Origin: Candidatus Uhrbacteria bacterium | GTDB lineage: Bacteria; Patescibacteriota; Patescibacteriia; JACPHY01 | Direction of reading: 5' to 3' | Length of the DNA: 39,103 bases | Assembly: GCA_016188355.1 (NCBI GenBank) | Contig: JACPHY010000006.1 | Span: 1-39,103, forward strand | Shown here: positions 1-30,893 of the stretch, piece by piece | How the letters are laid out: every line of letters begins with the position of its first letter | How positions within the stretch are numbered: the stretch's first letter is position 1 | Notes under the pieces: model-generated | Told to the model about the DNA's origin: nothing | Databases searched by the model: none | What the model saw: the letters and a program-made list of their open reading frames with translations, nothing else | Program-made: the position numbers and the translations under genes

Positions 1-2085
1 CGCGCACTGCCACGTCACCTGATCGATATAGGGGCGGTGACCATCAAGTTCACCGCGATCGTTCACGAGCGCGCCGACGAACGGGAACTCGTGTGGATCA
101 TCGAATCCGGGATATGGCATCGCCGAAATGCCCGCGCGCGTACGACCGGACATCGCCCACTGCAGCAAATAGAGCGGGTCGCCATGCGTACAAATGAGGA
201 TCGTCTCGCCTTCGTACTGCGCATCAATGTCGCGCAAGGCGAGCATCATGCGACGCGCGAGCTCGTCCCAGGTCTCGTTGGTACCGATTTTCTTTGTGAA
301 CTTCTCGAGTGGCGATGCGAATTGCCGCTCAAACTCCGCGTACGGCCTCCCATCAAAATCTGGAAGGTCAATTTCCCGCAGACGATCATCGTACTGCACG
401 GGCGCTCCCGTGAACTGCGCCACCTGTTCCGCCGTTTCGCGCATGCGGGCGTACGGGGAAGCGATAATCTTCGTAATCCCTTCCTTCGCCACCTGTTCCG
501 CCGCATGATTCACCCGCACCATGCCTGATGCCGTGAGCGGGTACTGATCGCTCGTTGCGAGCTGTGTGTTATTGATCCCTCGCGCATTCGATTCCGCCTC
601 TCCGTGTCGCATGAGGAGGAAGCGATTGCGCTTCTGCGTTTTTGCGAGCAGAGTCGCAAACGATCCCACGAGCTCATCGTGGCCACAGCCATCACACCGC
701 CACAGGGGAAGCGGCGTCCCCCAGTAGCGTTCGCGGGTGATCGCCCAATCCTTGAGCTCGCGCAACCATTCCCCAAAGCGCCCATCGCGAAGGTGGTCCG
801 GATGCCACTGGATCGTTTGGTTTTTCCGTTGAATCTCCTCACGCAGGCGCGACATCTGGATGTACCACGATGCCCGCGCGAAATAGAGGAGCGGTGTCTT
901 GCAGCGCCAACAGAAGGGGTACGTGTGTCGAGTGGTGGTATCCCGGAAGAGCAGGCCACGCGCGCGGAGATCCGCGCGTACGTCTTCATCTGCCTGTTTT
1001 GCAAATTTCCCCGCGCCGGGAAGTCCTTCCGCCATGATGCCCTTCTCATCGACCGAATAGGTCACGGGAATACCACGCTGCTTCAATGTAAAATCCTCCT
1101 CCCCATATGCGGGCGCAATGTGGACGATGCCGGTCCCATCACCCATCGACACGAACGCCGCATCGAGCACCTGATATGCATTCGGATACGGCGTGGTATC
1201 AATGCGTGCATAGAGTGGCACGTATCGCAATCCCACAAGTGCGTGCCCCGATACGACGCGTTCCACCGTCGCCGCATCGCCGAGCACGCGCTCCACCAAG
1301 GGACGCGCCATCACGAATCGCTCCCCACCACACACCGCGACCGCATATTCCACGTCCGGATGTACCACCAACGCGCCGTTCCCCGGCAACGTCCATGGGG
1401 TCGTGGTCCACACGAGAAATGCAGTGCCCTCGGGAACGCCGAGCTTCGTAGCGCTCTCCTGGGCGAGCACAAATTTCACGAACACCGACGGATCCTCGAC
1501 ATCATCCTCGTATCCCTGCGCCACCTCATGCGACGAGAGCGGCGTCTCGCATCGCGGGCACCACGGCACAATCTTGTGATCGCGGACAAGCAGTCCTTTC
1601 TTCCATGCCTGTTCCAGGAACCACCAAATACTCTCGACGTACGACATCTGGTACGTCACATACGGATCATCGAGGTCCACCCAGTACCCCACCTTGCGGG
1701 TGAGATCCTCCCACTTCTCCTTGAATTCCCACACGCTATCGCGGCATGCCGCATTGAACGCAGCAACACCGTACCGCTCGATATCGCGCTTCGTTTTGAG
1801 TCCGAGCTTCTTCTCGATCTGGAGTTCCACCGGGAGCCCGTGCGTATCCCACCCCGCCTTCCGCCGCACGCGGTATCCACGCATGGTCTTGTACCGCGGA
1901 ATCACATCCTTATACGTACGTGACTCTACATGATGGATCCCCGGCGGCGCATTCGCCGTCGGTGGACCTTCGAAAAAGACGAACTCTCCCTGGGCGGCAT
2001 CGCGTTCGAGCGTGCGCTCGAAGATGCGACGCTCCCCCCAGAACGCAAGAATTTCCTGCTCAAGATCAAATTGGCGATTCGACAT
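1..2085 (-). CDS. ileS: Isoleucyl-tRNA synthetase, C-terminus outside window, with an embedded histidine phosphatase domain
   Basis: Minus frame open from ATG at 2085 to base 1 (695 codons; absent from the ORF track because no stop lies in the window). Reads MSNRQFDLEQEILAFW..FFEGPPTANAPPGIHH..KAGWDTHGLPVE..WAITRERYWGTPLPLWRCDGCGH..HRPYIDQVTWQCA, all class I IleRS landmarks. Confidence 0.96.
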   Translation of the reverse strand, partial: MSNRQFDLEQEILAFWGERRIFERTLERDAAQGEFVFFEGPPTANAPPGIHHVESRTYKDVIPRYKTMRGYRVRRKAGWDTHGLPVELQIEKKLGLKTKRDIERYGVAAFNAACRDSVWEFKEKWEDLTRKVGYWVDLDDPYVTYQMSYVESIWWFLEQAWKKGLLVRDHKIVPWCPRCETPLSSHEVAQGYEDDVEDPSVFVKFVLAQESATKLGVPEGTAFLVWTTTPWTLPGNGALVVHPDVEYAVAVCGGERFVMARPLVERVLGDAATVERVVSGHALVGLRYVPLYARIDTTPYPNAYQVLDAAFVSMGDGTGIVHIAPAYGEEDFTLKQRGIPVTYSVDEKGIMAEGLPGAGKFAKQADEDVRADLRARGLLFRDTTTRHTYPFCWRCKTPLLYFARASWYIQMSRLREEIQRKNQTIQWHPDHLRDGRFGEWLRELKDWAITRERYWGTPLPLWRCDGCGHDELVGSFATLLAKTQKRNRFLLMRHGEAESNARGINNTQLATSDQYPLTASGMVRVNHAAEQVAKEGITKIIASPYARMRETAEQVAQFTGAPVQYDDRLREIDLPDFDGRPYAEFERQFASPLEKFTKKIGTNETWDELARRMMLALRDIDAQYEGETILICTHGDPLYLLQWAMSGRTRAGISAMPYPGFDDPHEFPFVGALVNDRGELDGHRPYIDQVTWQCA

Positions 2086-25958: not shown

Positions 25959-25963
25959 CTAAA

Positions 25964-26080
25964 CCGGGCACCGGCCTACTCTCCCGGGGGTTAGTTTACC
26001 CCAAGTACCATCGGCGCTGGAGGTTTTCACGACTCTGTTCGGGATGGGAAGAGGTGGGACCCCTCCGCTCAAGGCACCCA
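25964..26080 (-). rRNA. rrf: 5S rRNA (ends approximate)
   Basis: Minus strand GGGTGCC..GCGGAGGGGTCCCACCTCTTCCCATCCCGAACAGAGTCG..CGCCGATGGTACTTGGGG..GGGAGAGTAGGCCGGTGCCC; terminal helix pairs. Confidence 0.92.
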
Positions 26081-26422
26081 GATGACGCCGCACGAGCCTT
26101 GCGGCTCGCGGGGCGGGCATCTGATTGCCAAAGAGTGCTGCACGCACTCCGTCGGGACTTCGCCCGATCCGTACGGCTCGGCTAAAGCGGTTACCCGCCG
26201 TACACCTGCCGCCGGTCAACCCGGTCATCTCCCGGGGGGCTCAACGAGGCCTTATCTTGAGGGCGGCTTCACGCTTAGATGCTTTCAGCGTTTATCCGCA
26301 TTCGACGATAGCTACCCAGCAGTGCTCTTGGCAGAACAACTGGTACACCAGAGGTCGATTGTTCCCGGTCCTCTCGTACTAGGGAACAGTCCTCTCAAGC
26401 CTCAAACGCCCGTGGTGGATAG

Positions 26423-26534
<112 letters not shown>

Positions 26535-27358
26535 CTAGTACATACAAACAAACTTGTTTGTATTGTGGACTATACCTTCACCCTCACCCAGGAGGGGTTG
26601 GCGTGTTATGCGTGCATAATATTCCAGAACAACCGCACGCATCTCGTTGATGTATTCCCCATCAACTCAGTCTCTACGGGGTCACCACGCCAGTTTATAG
26701 GAAAATATGGGTAGTACGTATGACCGGAGGAGCGAACGCATCCTCCGCGCGCTGGGAACGCGTATCCATAACCGCAGGTACTGCTTATCACGATGGATCG
26801 ATGTGTCAATGTTCCATTGATGCAGCAACGATCGTCGAAGCCACTCCTGCGATACGCGATCAAATTGCTGCGTATTGAGGTAGAGGCCATTCCGACTCTT
26901 CGCGCCATCATCCATGAACCACACTGCGATCGCCTGCAGATCGAGAGGCATCGTCCCTCGAATCTGCTTTCCATGATCACCGAAATAGAACCGCTCGTGC
27001 CATTGCGTCAGCACGGGTAGGCTCCGCGTTGTGAATCGGTACGCACGTCGCACGCCATTCGTCGAACGTTCCATCGGAGGAGTCCGAACCAGAGTGCGGA
27101 ACACCTCAAATTTCCAATCGACGTATGCGCGATACTTCGCCGCATGATTCACTTCGAGCAACGCATTTCGGCCAACGGTTTGTCGCCGAAGCGCTCCGTC
27201 GCCGAGAATACTTCCGATGAGTACCTGCTCCTGTAACTGTGTGAGACTTCCCACGGTATTGTCCATGCGCCGATATGATACCACTGGGCGCCATGGAGAT
27301 CCACCGTTATGAGCCAATTTTTTGTGCAGCATCACTGCTGCAGCACCCCGATGTGTTG
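26535..27358 (-). other. Group I intron at E. coli-equivalent 23S U2500, with homing endonuclease ORF
   Basis: Exons GGCACCT and CGATGTCGGC are split. P1 GCACCU/GGGUGC with terminal U.G; intron ends in G; core-like GUAGAGACUGA and GAAGGUAUAGUCC. Confidence 0.92.
26682..27266 (-). CDS. LAGLIDADG homing endonuclease (intron-encoded)
   Basis: LIGSILGDGAL and AIAVWFMDDGAKS motifs; ORF could extend to 27335. Confidence 0.9.
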   Translation of the reverse strand: MDNTVGSLTQLQEQVLIGSILGDGALRRQTVGRNALLEVNHAAKYRAYVDWKFEVFRTLVRTPPMERSTNGVRRAYRFTTRSLPVLTQWHERFYFGDHGKQIRGTMPLDLQAIAVWFMDDGAKSRNGLYLNTQQFDRVSQEWLRRSLLHQWNIDTSIHRDKQYLRLWIRVPSARRMRSLLRSYVLPIFSYKLAW

Positions 27359-27916
27359 AGGTGCCAAACCTCGCCGTCGCTGTGGACGCTCGGGCGAGAT
27401 CAGCCTGTTATCCCCGGAGTAGCTTTTATCCGATGAGCTTCCGCCGTCCTACATCGAACGGTCGGATCACTAGCTCCCGCTTTCGCGACTGCTCGGCGTG
27501 TCGGCCTTGCAGTAAAGCCGGCTTTTCCGCTTGCAGGTCCAGCGCGATTTCCATCCGCGCTAAGCCGACCTTTGTGAACGCCTCCGTTACCTTTTGGGAG
27601 GCAACCGCCCCAGTCAAACTGCCTACCAGCTCCTGTCTCCCCAGCAGGATAACTGCCAGAAATTAGGATACACACAGCGCAAGGGTGGTGTCTCATTGTT
27701 GGACCGCCTTGCGGCGGCCCTCCCACCTACGCTGAACATACGAAGCATGTACCCAAGAGCAAGCTACAGTAAAGCTTCACGGGGTCTTTTCGTCCAGCCA
27801 CGGGTAAGAGCGCATCTTCACGCCCCTTGCAATTTCGCCGGGTCCCTCGTGGAGACAGTCGTCAAGTCGTTATGCCATTCGTGCGGGCCGGAACTCACCC
27901 GGCAGGGGATTACGCT

Positions 27917-28218
27917 CACATTGTTGCTGCACCTACTTGCGTAGGTACGGTGCGAACATTTCTGTCGCACTCTGCAGGTCGCCCTGCAGGTCGGACTCTA
28001 TCTTTCTCGATGCTGCCACCGAGATCCGGCGTGGAGTCTCTGAGGGGTCCCCATGGACTTCCCTGCTGATTGTCCGCATCGGTCACCGATTCTCACCTCC
28101 GAGGAGGTACGATGACATGCGCGGATGTTCCAGCATATAGCCAGATTTTCTTCCTACCTCTCCGCGGCATACGGAGTTCGGAGGGGGTCTTCCACCCCAC
28201 TAAGGCAACGAGTATTCC
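27917..28218 (-). other. ORF-less group I intron at E. coli-equivalent 23S U1931
   Basis: CCTAAGGT and AGCGTAATCC are split by 302 bp. P1 CUAAGGU/GCCUUAG with U.G; P10 CGUU/AGCG; R/S-like CUCAGAGACU and AAGAUAGAGUCC. Confidence 0.92.
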
Positions 28219-29031
28219 ACCTTAGGACGATTATGGTTATCGCCGGCGTTCATCAGCGCTTCAGTTCAAGGCTACATGTAACCTTGCGGTCACGTTTCAC
28301 CTCTCTCTTTAACGTTCTGACACTGGCCAGGCATCAGCCCCTATACTTCGCCTTTCGGCTTTGCAGGGACCTGTGTTTTTGGTAAACAGTCGCTTGACGT
28401 CGCTTGCTGCGGCCCGTATTGCTACGGGCAGGCCTTATCCCGAAGTTACGGCCATTGTATTGCCGAGTTCCTTCACGAGGGTTCTCCCGTACACCTTGGC
28501 ACACTCGTGCCCACCCACCTGTGTCGGTTTCCGGTACGGTTCCCAACCGCTCATAACCGTCGCCTTTTCTGGGCAGCTCACTCGCTCTCATCGGCTTGGC
28601 CTTGCGGCCGCACCTGCGTCCTGACCGGAGGTCAAGACAGACGTATAGCCAAAACGCCCGAGAACTATCGAACTGCGTCAGCGACGGGAGCACGATCGGG
28701 AGGACAGGAATATTCACCTGTATTCCATCGGCTACCCCCCACGCTATGCGCGAGGACTCACCTTAGGACCGCCTAACCCTGGGTCGATTTGCGTTGCCCA
28801 GGAAACCTTGGGTTTACGGTGGGAAAGGTTCTCACTTTCCGTTTTGCTACTTATGCCAGCATTCTCACTTCCCTGCGCTCCACCGGCCCTCACGGGTCCG
28901 GCTTCACCGCAGCAGGGAACGCTCCCCTACCACGCATGCCGTAAACGGCATACATCCTCAGCTTCGGCACTCAACTTAAGCCCCGTTACATTTTCGGCGC
29001 AAGGCAGCTTGACCAGTGAGCTGTTACGCTT

Positions 29032-29072
<41 letters not shown>

Positions 29073-29725
29073 CTGCGCCGCCTCACCACCTTTCCCACTG
29101 AGTTGAGATTTCAGGGCCTTAGCTGGAGGTCTGGGCTGTTTCCCTTTTGTTCCGTGGAGCTTCGCCCCCACGTACTGACTACGCTGATATAACTTGCCTG
29201 GTATTCGGAGTTTGGTTGGGGAACGTAGGATCGCTCCACCGGTCCCCATTCAGTGCTCTACCCCCAGGGGTCATCAACGCGCTAGCCCACAAGCTATTTC
29301 GGGGAGAACCAGCTATCACCGAGTTCGATTGGAATTTCTCCTCTAGCCACAGGTCATCCCAAAGCGTTGCACGACTCACGGGTTCGGGCCTCCGTTCGCT
29401 GTTACGCGAACTTCACCCTGCCCATGGCTAGCTCACCCGGTTTCGGGTCTTGTTGCTGCTGCGTTCGATCAGGTGAATGACGATCTCCAGGAATGCCGAT
29501 TGCTCGGCACTCCCATTGAACGTCAAACACCTGAACGATATGCCCTTATCAGACTCGGTTTCCCTGTGCCTTGGGCCCGTAGGCCTTCGACAGGCAACAG
29601 CAATAAACTCACTGGCTCATTCTTCAATAGGCACGCCGTCACTCATCCCGGCTTGCGCCGGGACCGAGCTCCGACTTCTTGTAAGAGTAGGGTTTCAGGA
29701 GCTTTTCGCCGCCCTCACCGGGCTG

Positions 29726-29765
<40 letters not shown>

Positions 29766-30893
29766 GCCAGATGTATTTAGCCTTGGAGCGTAGTCGCCCC
29801 GATTTCCGACGGGATTTCACGTGTCCCGTCGTACTTCCGCAATGATCGCATTGGAGTCTGACCCCTTTCGCCTACAGGGCTGTCACCTGCTCTGGCTCCC
29901 CTTTCCAGGGGGATTCGACTAGGGATGTCATCACCCTCACGGGTTACTCTCCAATCTGCGCTACTGGACGAGCGCAACCGACCATGCGTTTGACTCCATA
30001 CTGGATATGCCCGTCCCGGCTGAGATGCACTACTCGTCGCTGCGTACCTTGCGGCACGAACGAACTTCGCGCTTCTCCTCCAATATGGTTTCGGCTGTTC
30101 CCCGTTCGCTCGCCACTACTAGGGGAATGAGCACATACTCCGTTCGCGCAATGCCAAATGTTGAATGCGCGCAGGGGCAAGCCCCCGCCCACATTCTCCA
30201 TTCAACATTACGCGGTGACGAAGTATGCACCTTGTTTTCTTTTCCTCCGGCTACTGAGATGGTTCACTTCGCCGGGTGCCCTCCCGCTCCACGCGAGGTG
30301 GAGTGGGTGATATCGCTTCACAATATCGAGTTTCCTCATTCGGAAATCCCCGGATCAAAGCATGCTTGGCTGCTCCCCGAGGCGTATCGCCGCCTGCTGC
30401 GTCCTTCATCGGCATCTGGTGCCTAGGCATCCACCCTACTCCCTTATTGTCCCGACGGAGTGCGTGACGCACTCCGATCCTCGCGAGAACCTTTCGGTTA
30501 TCCCGCGGACCCTCCCATGCTCGCGGACTCAATGAAGAGCCGCACGTGCTGGGGGGATATTTTCGCACGTGCACCGCTGCACGCACTCGAACCTTCCACC
30601 CAATTGCAAAGTTTGTACGAAAGATGCGCTTACCACTTCGATTGTGAACGTTCTCTCGTCACAACCGAAGGTTGATGGTCGAACTCACGCTCCCCCACCA
30701 ACCTTCGATTGTTCACGCGCCACCTTCCATCGCTCCTCGTGGAAACAAAATCGCCGCTGGGCCCCAGCGACGTGGCTCCGCATGCAAGCGGAGTATCCAA
30801 TCGCTAGGGGTTCCTCTGCACGGATCCGAGGAGTTTGTCCATACTGCGGGGCGATGTGGATAGCATGGTGATATCGATTCCAAACCTATACCC

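Follow-up and report, generated by a model that had tools for sequence, protein, structure and literature searches.

Does the gene at the beginning of this contig encode an isoleucyl-tRNA synthetase (IleRS) with a phosphatase built into its chain, and what would such a phosphatase do there? The window, by which we mean the whole 39,103-nucleotide stretch of Candidatus Uhrbacteria DNA analyzed here, was read in an initial annotation as part of a CPR-type genome carrying a complete RHG histidine phosphatase domain within IleRS. The domain was said to lie in one open frame between the CxxCG knuckle and HRPYID, which only a short linker connects in ordinary IleRS, and to retain all of its catalytic residues, making a working phosphatase plausible. 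Each of these claims held. One correction was needed: the contig ends before the gene does. Elsewhere, positions 25963-30457 of the window (minus strand) contain a 23S rRNA gene of about 4.3 kb, interrupted by a group I intron at 27972-28203, together with a 5S gene.

The ileS gene occupies window positions 1-2085 on the minus strand. It begins with ATG and runs for 695 codons without a stop before leaving the contig, so that only the N-terminal part of an IleRS2-type synthetase is present. The class I synthetase core was detected at aa 12-468 (Pfam tRNA-synt_1, E 2.8e-69). The IleRS model TIGR00392 matched only aa 7-485, and its score (542 bits) remained below the 621-bit cut-off because the gene is truncated. 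The C-terminal part of the gene starts exactly at the end of another contig of the same genome (C15, base 66,074). About 115 codons, including KMSKS, fall in the gap between the two, and the N-terminal motifs are inside the window. The break is an assembly gap and not a mutation.

The RHG domain (His_Phos_1, histidine phosphatase branch 1) spans aa 490-650 (window 136-618, minus strand). It matched PF00300 with an E-value of 5.1e-32 and 111.6 bits, against a curated cut-off of 21.7, and with an E-value of 4.8e-33 when submitted alone. Comparison with insert-free IleRS places the entire insert at approximately aa 485-682 (40-633, minus strand), including a C-terminal tail ending in FVGALVNDRGELDG. 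Immediately ahead of it is the IleRS segment RERYWGTPLPLWRCDGCG (682-735, minus strand), which holds the CxxC half of a zinc knuckle and is conserved in relatives. After it, the synthetase resumes with HRPYIDQVTWQCA (1-39, minus strand) and the second half of the knuckle, HRPYID starting at aa 683 (window 39). The order is thus RERYWGTPLPLWRCDGCG...GSFATLLAKTQKRN, the RHG domain, and then ...GELDG-HRPYIDQVTWQC. The insert is located in connective peptide 2 (CP2), between the CxxC half-knuckle and HRPYID; we take this region to be CP2 and the second zinc knuckle from the assignment in Thermus thermophilus IleRS. The equivalent linker in non-Patescibacterial IleRS is about 25-45 residues long.

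Two genomes of the same family (G394 and G424) encode the same arrangement in intact frames of 1287 and 1194 codons, with 60% and 54% identity to the window over this segment. KMSKS, the zinc cysteines, and the editing motifs are conserved in relatives, and an AlphaFold2 model of a full-length relative (pLDDT 90.2) had IleRS2 from Priestia megaterium (8c8v) as its best PDB match. The catalytic, editing, and anticodon parts align with this structure and with Thermus IleRS (1ile), the best matches of the full model; unlike the window-type IleRS, neither has a 190-residue RHG insert in CP2. Because the synthetase is intact in the relatives, we interpret the insert as an added function.

We profiled Patescibacteria (CPR) for the same insertion, and it is recurrent. 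Roughly 57 of 380 genomes of the phylum have IleRS-type inserts, counted as RHG matches in long frames after subtraction of the ValRS cases. Among the 240 genomes of the window's own class, the insert was found in about 45 IleRS and about 20 valyl-tRNA synthetases (ValRS). These counts are approximate, since the two enzymes were sorted partly by frame length and match extent. Most IleRS of this class have no insert, so it is dispensable for the synthetase. In a GTDB scan by IleRS motif that was not exhaustive, 50 of 80 loci also matched the insert. All carriers with a named lineage were Patescibacteria (Colwell-, Lipton-, Yanofsky-, Jorgensen-, Zambryski-, Nomura-, Azam-, Taylor-, Giovannoni-, and Sungbacteria), and others were unnamed CPR bins. 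Insert-free loci, with linkers again of about 25-45 residues, came from Chloroflexota, Bacillota, Planctomycetota, Euryarchaeota, other groups, and some CPR; a few loci were too short to judge. Absence outside Patescibacteria is supported but not proven, as it rests on this single, non-exhaustive scan.

Is the embedded domain an active enzyme? We compared 157 RHG domains from the fetched synthetases (135 in IleRS and 22 in ValRS). The RHG motif (R493-H494-G495, window 601-609, minus strand) keeps its Arg and His in 157/157 domains, as does the SPYAR arginine (R547, 445-447, minus strand). The proton-donor acid (E571, 373-375, minus strand) is Glu or Asp in 156/157, and the second catalytic histidine (H634 in CTHGD, 184-186, minus strand) is kept in 156/157. 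The possibility that homologs lack the catalytic Arg/His residues, raised by the initial annotation as a test of its own claim, is therefore not borne out. Mean pairwise identity across the set is only 31%, and just nine columns are conserved at 97% or more, including the active-site R, H, R, and H. No degenerate insert of about 200 residues was found among the GTDB loci, which were collected by the IleRS motif and not by RHG. This argues strongly, though not conclusively, that the active site is under selection for catalysis, an inference from sequence.

The AlphaFold2 model of the domain (pLDDT 90.9) has the alpha/beta RHG fold, with PhoE (1h2e) as the best Foldseek match (2.2e-13, TM 0.73-0.77). 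By both sequence and fold, the closest solved relatives are PhoE (1h2e/1ebb), PspA (4ij5), and CobC (6nru), which share the fold and the catalytic R-H, R, E, and H with the insert. These PDB entries are stand-alone enzymes, whereas the RHG domain here is inside a tRNA synthetase. We consider it very likely that the insert is an active phosphatase; this is strongly inferred, without an assay and with the substrate unknown.

The insert did not reach the equivalog cut-offs for the 2,3-BPG-dependent phosphoglycerate mutase dPGM (dPGM_arch, 81.8 vs 225 bits; GpmB, 57.9 vs 261), the CobC alpha-ribazole phosphatase (TIGR03162, 72.5 vs 162.9 bits), the phosphohistidine phosphatase SixA (TIGR00249, 26.4 vs 74.5 bits), or PspA, and the substrate therefore cannot be named. 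Five positions past the second His, many IleRS inserts have an aromatic residue, as in HGDPLW (65 of 106 have W, Y, or F); R or K is more frequent at this site in stand-alone CPR RHG proteins. This aromatic residue may be a specificity or interface feature. The residues past the second His are variable, which does not fit a single strict substrate. The PADLOC anti-phage defense models gave no match, and a defense-system reading was dropped.

Our survey went beyond the initial annotation: the domain is also found in ValRS, occupies several different sites, can be present in tandem copies, and in two genomes is encoded by its own gene close to ileS. In ValRS, it is found at the CP2 position (for example L034-L038, L040, L041, L106-L108, L110, and L111) and after ...TLGWP (L049 and L050). 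In IleRS, further copies follow the knuckle (a second copy, family f79, L054-L064) or SVHYPF (L045), or stand where the anticodon domain begins (L045, L046, and L058). One IleRS (G243) contains three RHG domains. One ValRS (L103 of G046) has two RHG domains in CP2 (aa 483-825), different from each other and arranged in tandem.

Among PF00300 matches in frames longer than 850 aa from 45 CPR genomes, those checked (nearly all) were IleRS or ValRS, and none was LeuRS, MetRS, or CysRS. These genomes were chosen for holding such frames, so the comparison tests which proteins carry RHG and not how often. Unfused genes also occur near ileS. One genome (G349) has the order argS, stand-alone RHG, ileS, with the RHG gene 14 bases ahead of an ileS that lacks the insert. 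In a second (G332), argS is followed by an RHG gene, and ileS, again without the insert, begins two small genes further downstream. Few as they are, these two cases hint at an association of RHG with IleRS that does not depend on fusion. A gene for a small HD-domain protein (HD_4, MESH1-like; L023, 2602-3108) is present just upstream of ileS in the second genome, near the stand-alone RHG gene.

Other fusions were seen in passing. In CPR genomes, a pyruvate kinase (L104, G366:C2:90000-93500) and an MFS-type transporter (L042, G329:C16) each carry a fused RHG domain. One IleRS (L105 of G482) carries a NUDIX domain in its CP1 region (aa ~236-380; PF00293, 3.7e-20) plus RHG in CP2, and a second embedded NUDIX was found at G534:C147:231-563. 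NUDIX within IleRS was dropped as a wider pattern, because it was embedded in only two genomes of one genus. Another IleRS (L046 of G046) has a GNAT-like insert at aa ~630-750, upstream of FIAEGLDQTRGWFY, as well as RHG near the anticodon domain.

How did this distribution arise? In a tree of RHG domains, the f79 second copies clustered in a separate clade near the stand-alone proteins, away from the common IleRS insert. The ValRS copies fell in at least three places, several of them also apart from the common IleRS insert. This was a quick tree with many deep forks unresolved, and it suggests several independent RHG recruitments. On a tree of the IleRS core, the insert state must change 11 times, and well-supported branches force at least 10 of these changes. 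The insert is already present in early CPR branches, and rows without it are nested among those that have it. The simpler reading is thus that CPR gained the insert long ago and lost it many times, although repeated gain cannot be ruled out. Distances between IleRS cores and between inserts were correlated (Mantel r 0.40-0.51, 0/2000 permutations), consistent with mainly joint inheritance. Our best, still provisional, reading is an insert ancient in CPR, with losses and independent re-insertions. Insert-free CPR IleRS can contain LPxNxxGELDLHRP-like linkers (e.g., L179, L171, and L222), which might be scars of a lost insert but could equally be the pre-insertion linker. The insert-free linker of an Azambacteria IleRS (L179), HNWPYNNEGELDLHRPYVD, located ahead of HRPYVD, resembles the C-terminal tail of RHG inserts.

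Proteins that combine a synthetase with an additional enzymatic domain are already known. The nearest named model is NCBIfam ileS_w_GNAT (NF040702), which also describes IleRS with an added small enzyme domain; that domain is an acetyltransferase, not a phosphatase. The window protein did not reach its cut-off (197 vs 1999 bits) and contains no GNAT. Mycobacterial MutT1 (Nudix plus RHG) likewise has RHG on the same chain as a nucleotide-handling enzyme. There, RHG is the terminal domain of a Nudix protein and not a synthetase insert, and the RHG motif is dispensable for the measured activity (PMC11784022). We found no description of an RHG-bearing IleRS or ValRS in the literature searched, which did not cover most subscription journals or any preprints. 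Such architectures are likely to be visible in public domain databases.

We propose that the protein is probably bifunctional, an IleRS2-type synthetase with a catalytically competent RHG phosphomonoesterase (PhoE/CobC/PspA-like) in CP2, its activity being inferred and not shown. The insert would fold independently as a module within the CP2 loop, a phospho-histidine would form on H494, and a phosphate monoester would be hydrolyzed; phosphate transfer was not assayed. In the least certain step, the tethered phosphatase would act in cis as a house-cleaning enzyme and dephosphorylate a small phosphorylated metabolite or nucleotide that arises at, or interferes with, the branched-chain synthetases. 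The synthetase would thereby be kept working, or be coupled to that metabolite. We favor a role tied to the branched-chain synthetases because recruitment recurs in IleRS and ValRS, yet whether the function is truly tied to them and is not mere co-expression could go either way. The specific house-cleaning mechanism is no more than a possibility. The same caution applies to a bolder reading, in which a cis-acting phosphatase serves or protects IleRS/ValRS by destroying a phosphorylated compound there, be it an inhibitor, a by-product, or a signal nucleotide.

The closest rival is that two unrelated enzymes share one chain, one of them an ordinary metabolic or scavenging phosphatase whose gene once lay close to ileS in the same operon and was then inserted at a surface loop that tolerates it. 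The phosphatase would then be independent of aminoacylation, and the fusion would merely secure its expression. The insert is the sole RHG domain of this genome and of many carrier genomes and could serve as a general phosphatase; separate RHG genes near ileS offer an easy fusion route; aminoacyl-tRNA synthetases have been noted as preferred hosts of inserted domains generally (PMC13114784); and RHG is also fused to the kinase and the transporter noted above. However, random fusion would not pick IleRS and ValRS so consistently, repeatedly, and at different positions, and in some genomes separate RHG genes coexist with an embedded one. We rate this rival slightly behind a role tied to the synthetases.

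A structural or regulatory role, in which the RHG fold stabilizes CP2 or acts as a sensor of a phosphorylated ligand with negligible turnover, is unlikely. In its favor, the insert sits between the two halves of the zinc knuckle, and the MutT1 RHG domain is a precedent for a structural helper: its own activity is unknown, it is not the source of the measured phosphatase activity, and it gives structural support to the Nudix domain (PMC11784022). This precedent shows that retention of the catalytic His need not mean that the expected activity is present. Against it, near-complete retention of R-H-R-E-H at 31% mean identity is unexpected for a scaffold, and insert-free IleRS is common and intact in the same class. 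Among the roles offered by the initial annotation, structure only is thus disfavored, and regulation cannot be separated from chemistry on sequence evidence.

An RNA-directed activity, in which a phosphate is removed, close to the acceptor end, from tRNA or a product related to aminoacyl-tRNA, is very unlikely. CP2 is part of the catalytic half of class I synthetases, which would suit such a role. However, RHG branch-1 enzymes act mostly on small molecules or phospho-proteins, and no RNA-binding feature was identified.

It is also very unlikely, and largely refuted, that the insert is the phosphoglycerate mutase of the cell or another glycolytic enzyme. The dPGM-type models were among the best-scoring NCBIfam matches, but the scores are far under every dPGM cut-off and the closest solved relatives are the phosphatases PhoE, PspA, and CobC. 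GpmI was found in this genome, which argues against a glycolytic mutase role here, and in 20 of 24 genomes tested, and two genomes (G103 and G240) keep the insert with no enolase detected. Separately, many CPR genomes (G062, G264, G486, G400, and others) have two or three GpmI-type mutase genes in tandem, often beside enolase.

An assembly error, sequencing error, or frameshift is excluded: the gene does run off the contig end, but G394, G424, and over 100 other independent genomes encode the same arrangement in frame. The frameshift that the initial annotation named as its other possible refutation is likewise not borne out.

Across much of the CPR, a phosphatase with conserved catalytic residues is embedded within IleRS and, separately, within ValRS, an arrangement that appears to be undescribed in the literature searched. 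Plain IleRS or ValRS annotation overlooks what is, in some genomes, their only RHG phosphatase. The finding points to an unrecognized reaction coupled to branched-chain aminoacylation in mostly uncultured, metabolically minimal organisms. If the bolder, cis-acting reading is true, CPR would have repeatedly recruited such enzymes (RHG at several sites and sometimes as a neighboring gene, with occasional NUDIX and GNAT inserts), and there may be an unknown chemical threat to, or control point on, the charging of isoleucine and valine tRNAs.
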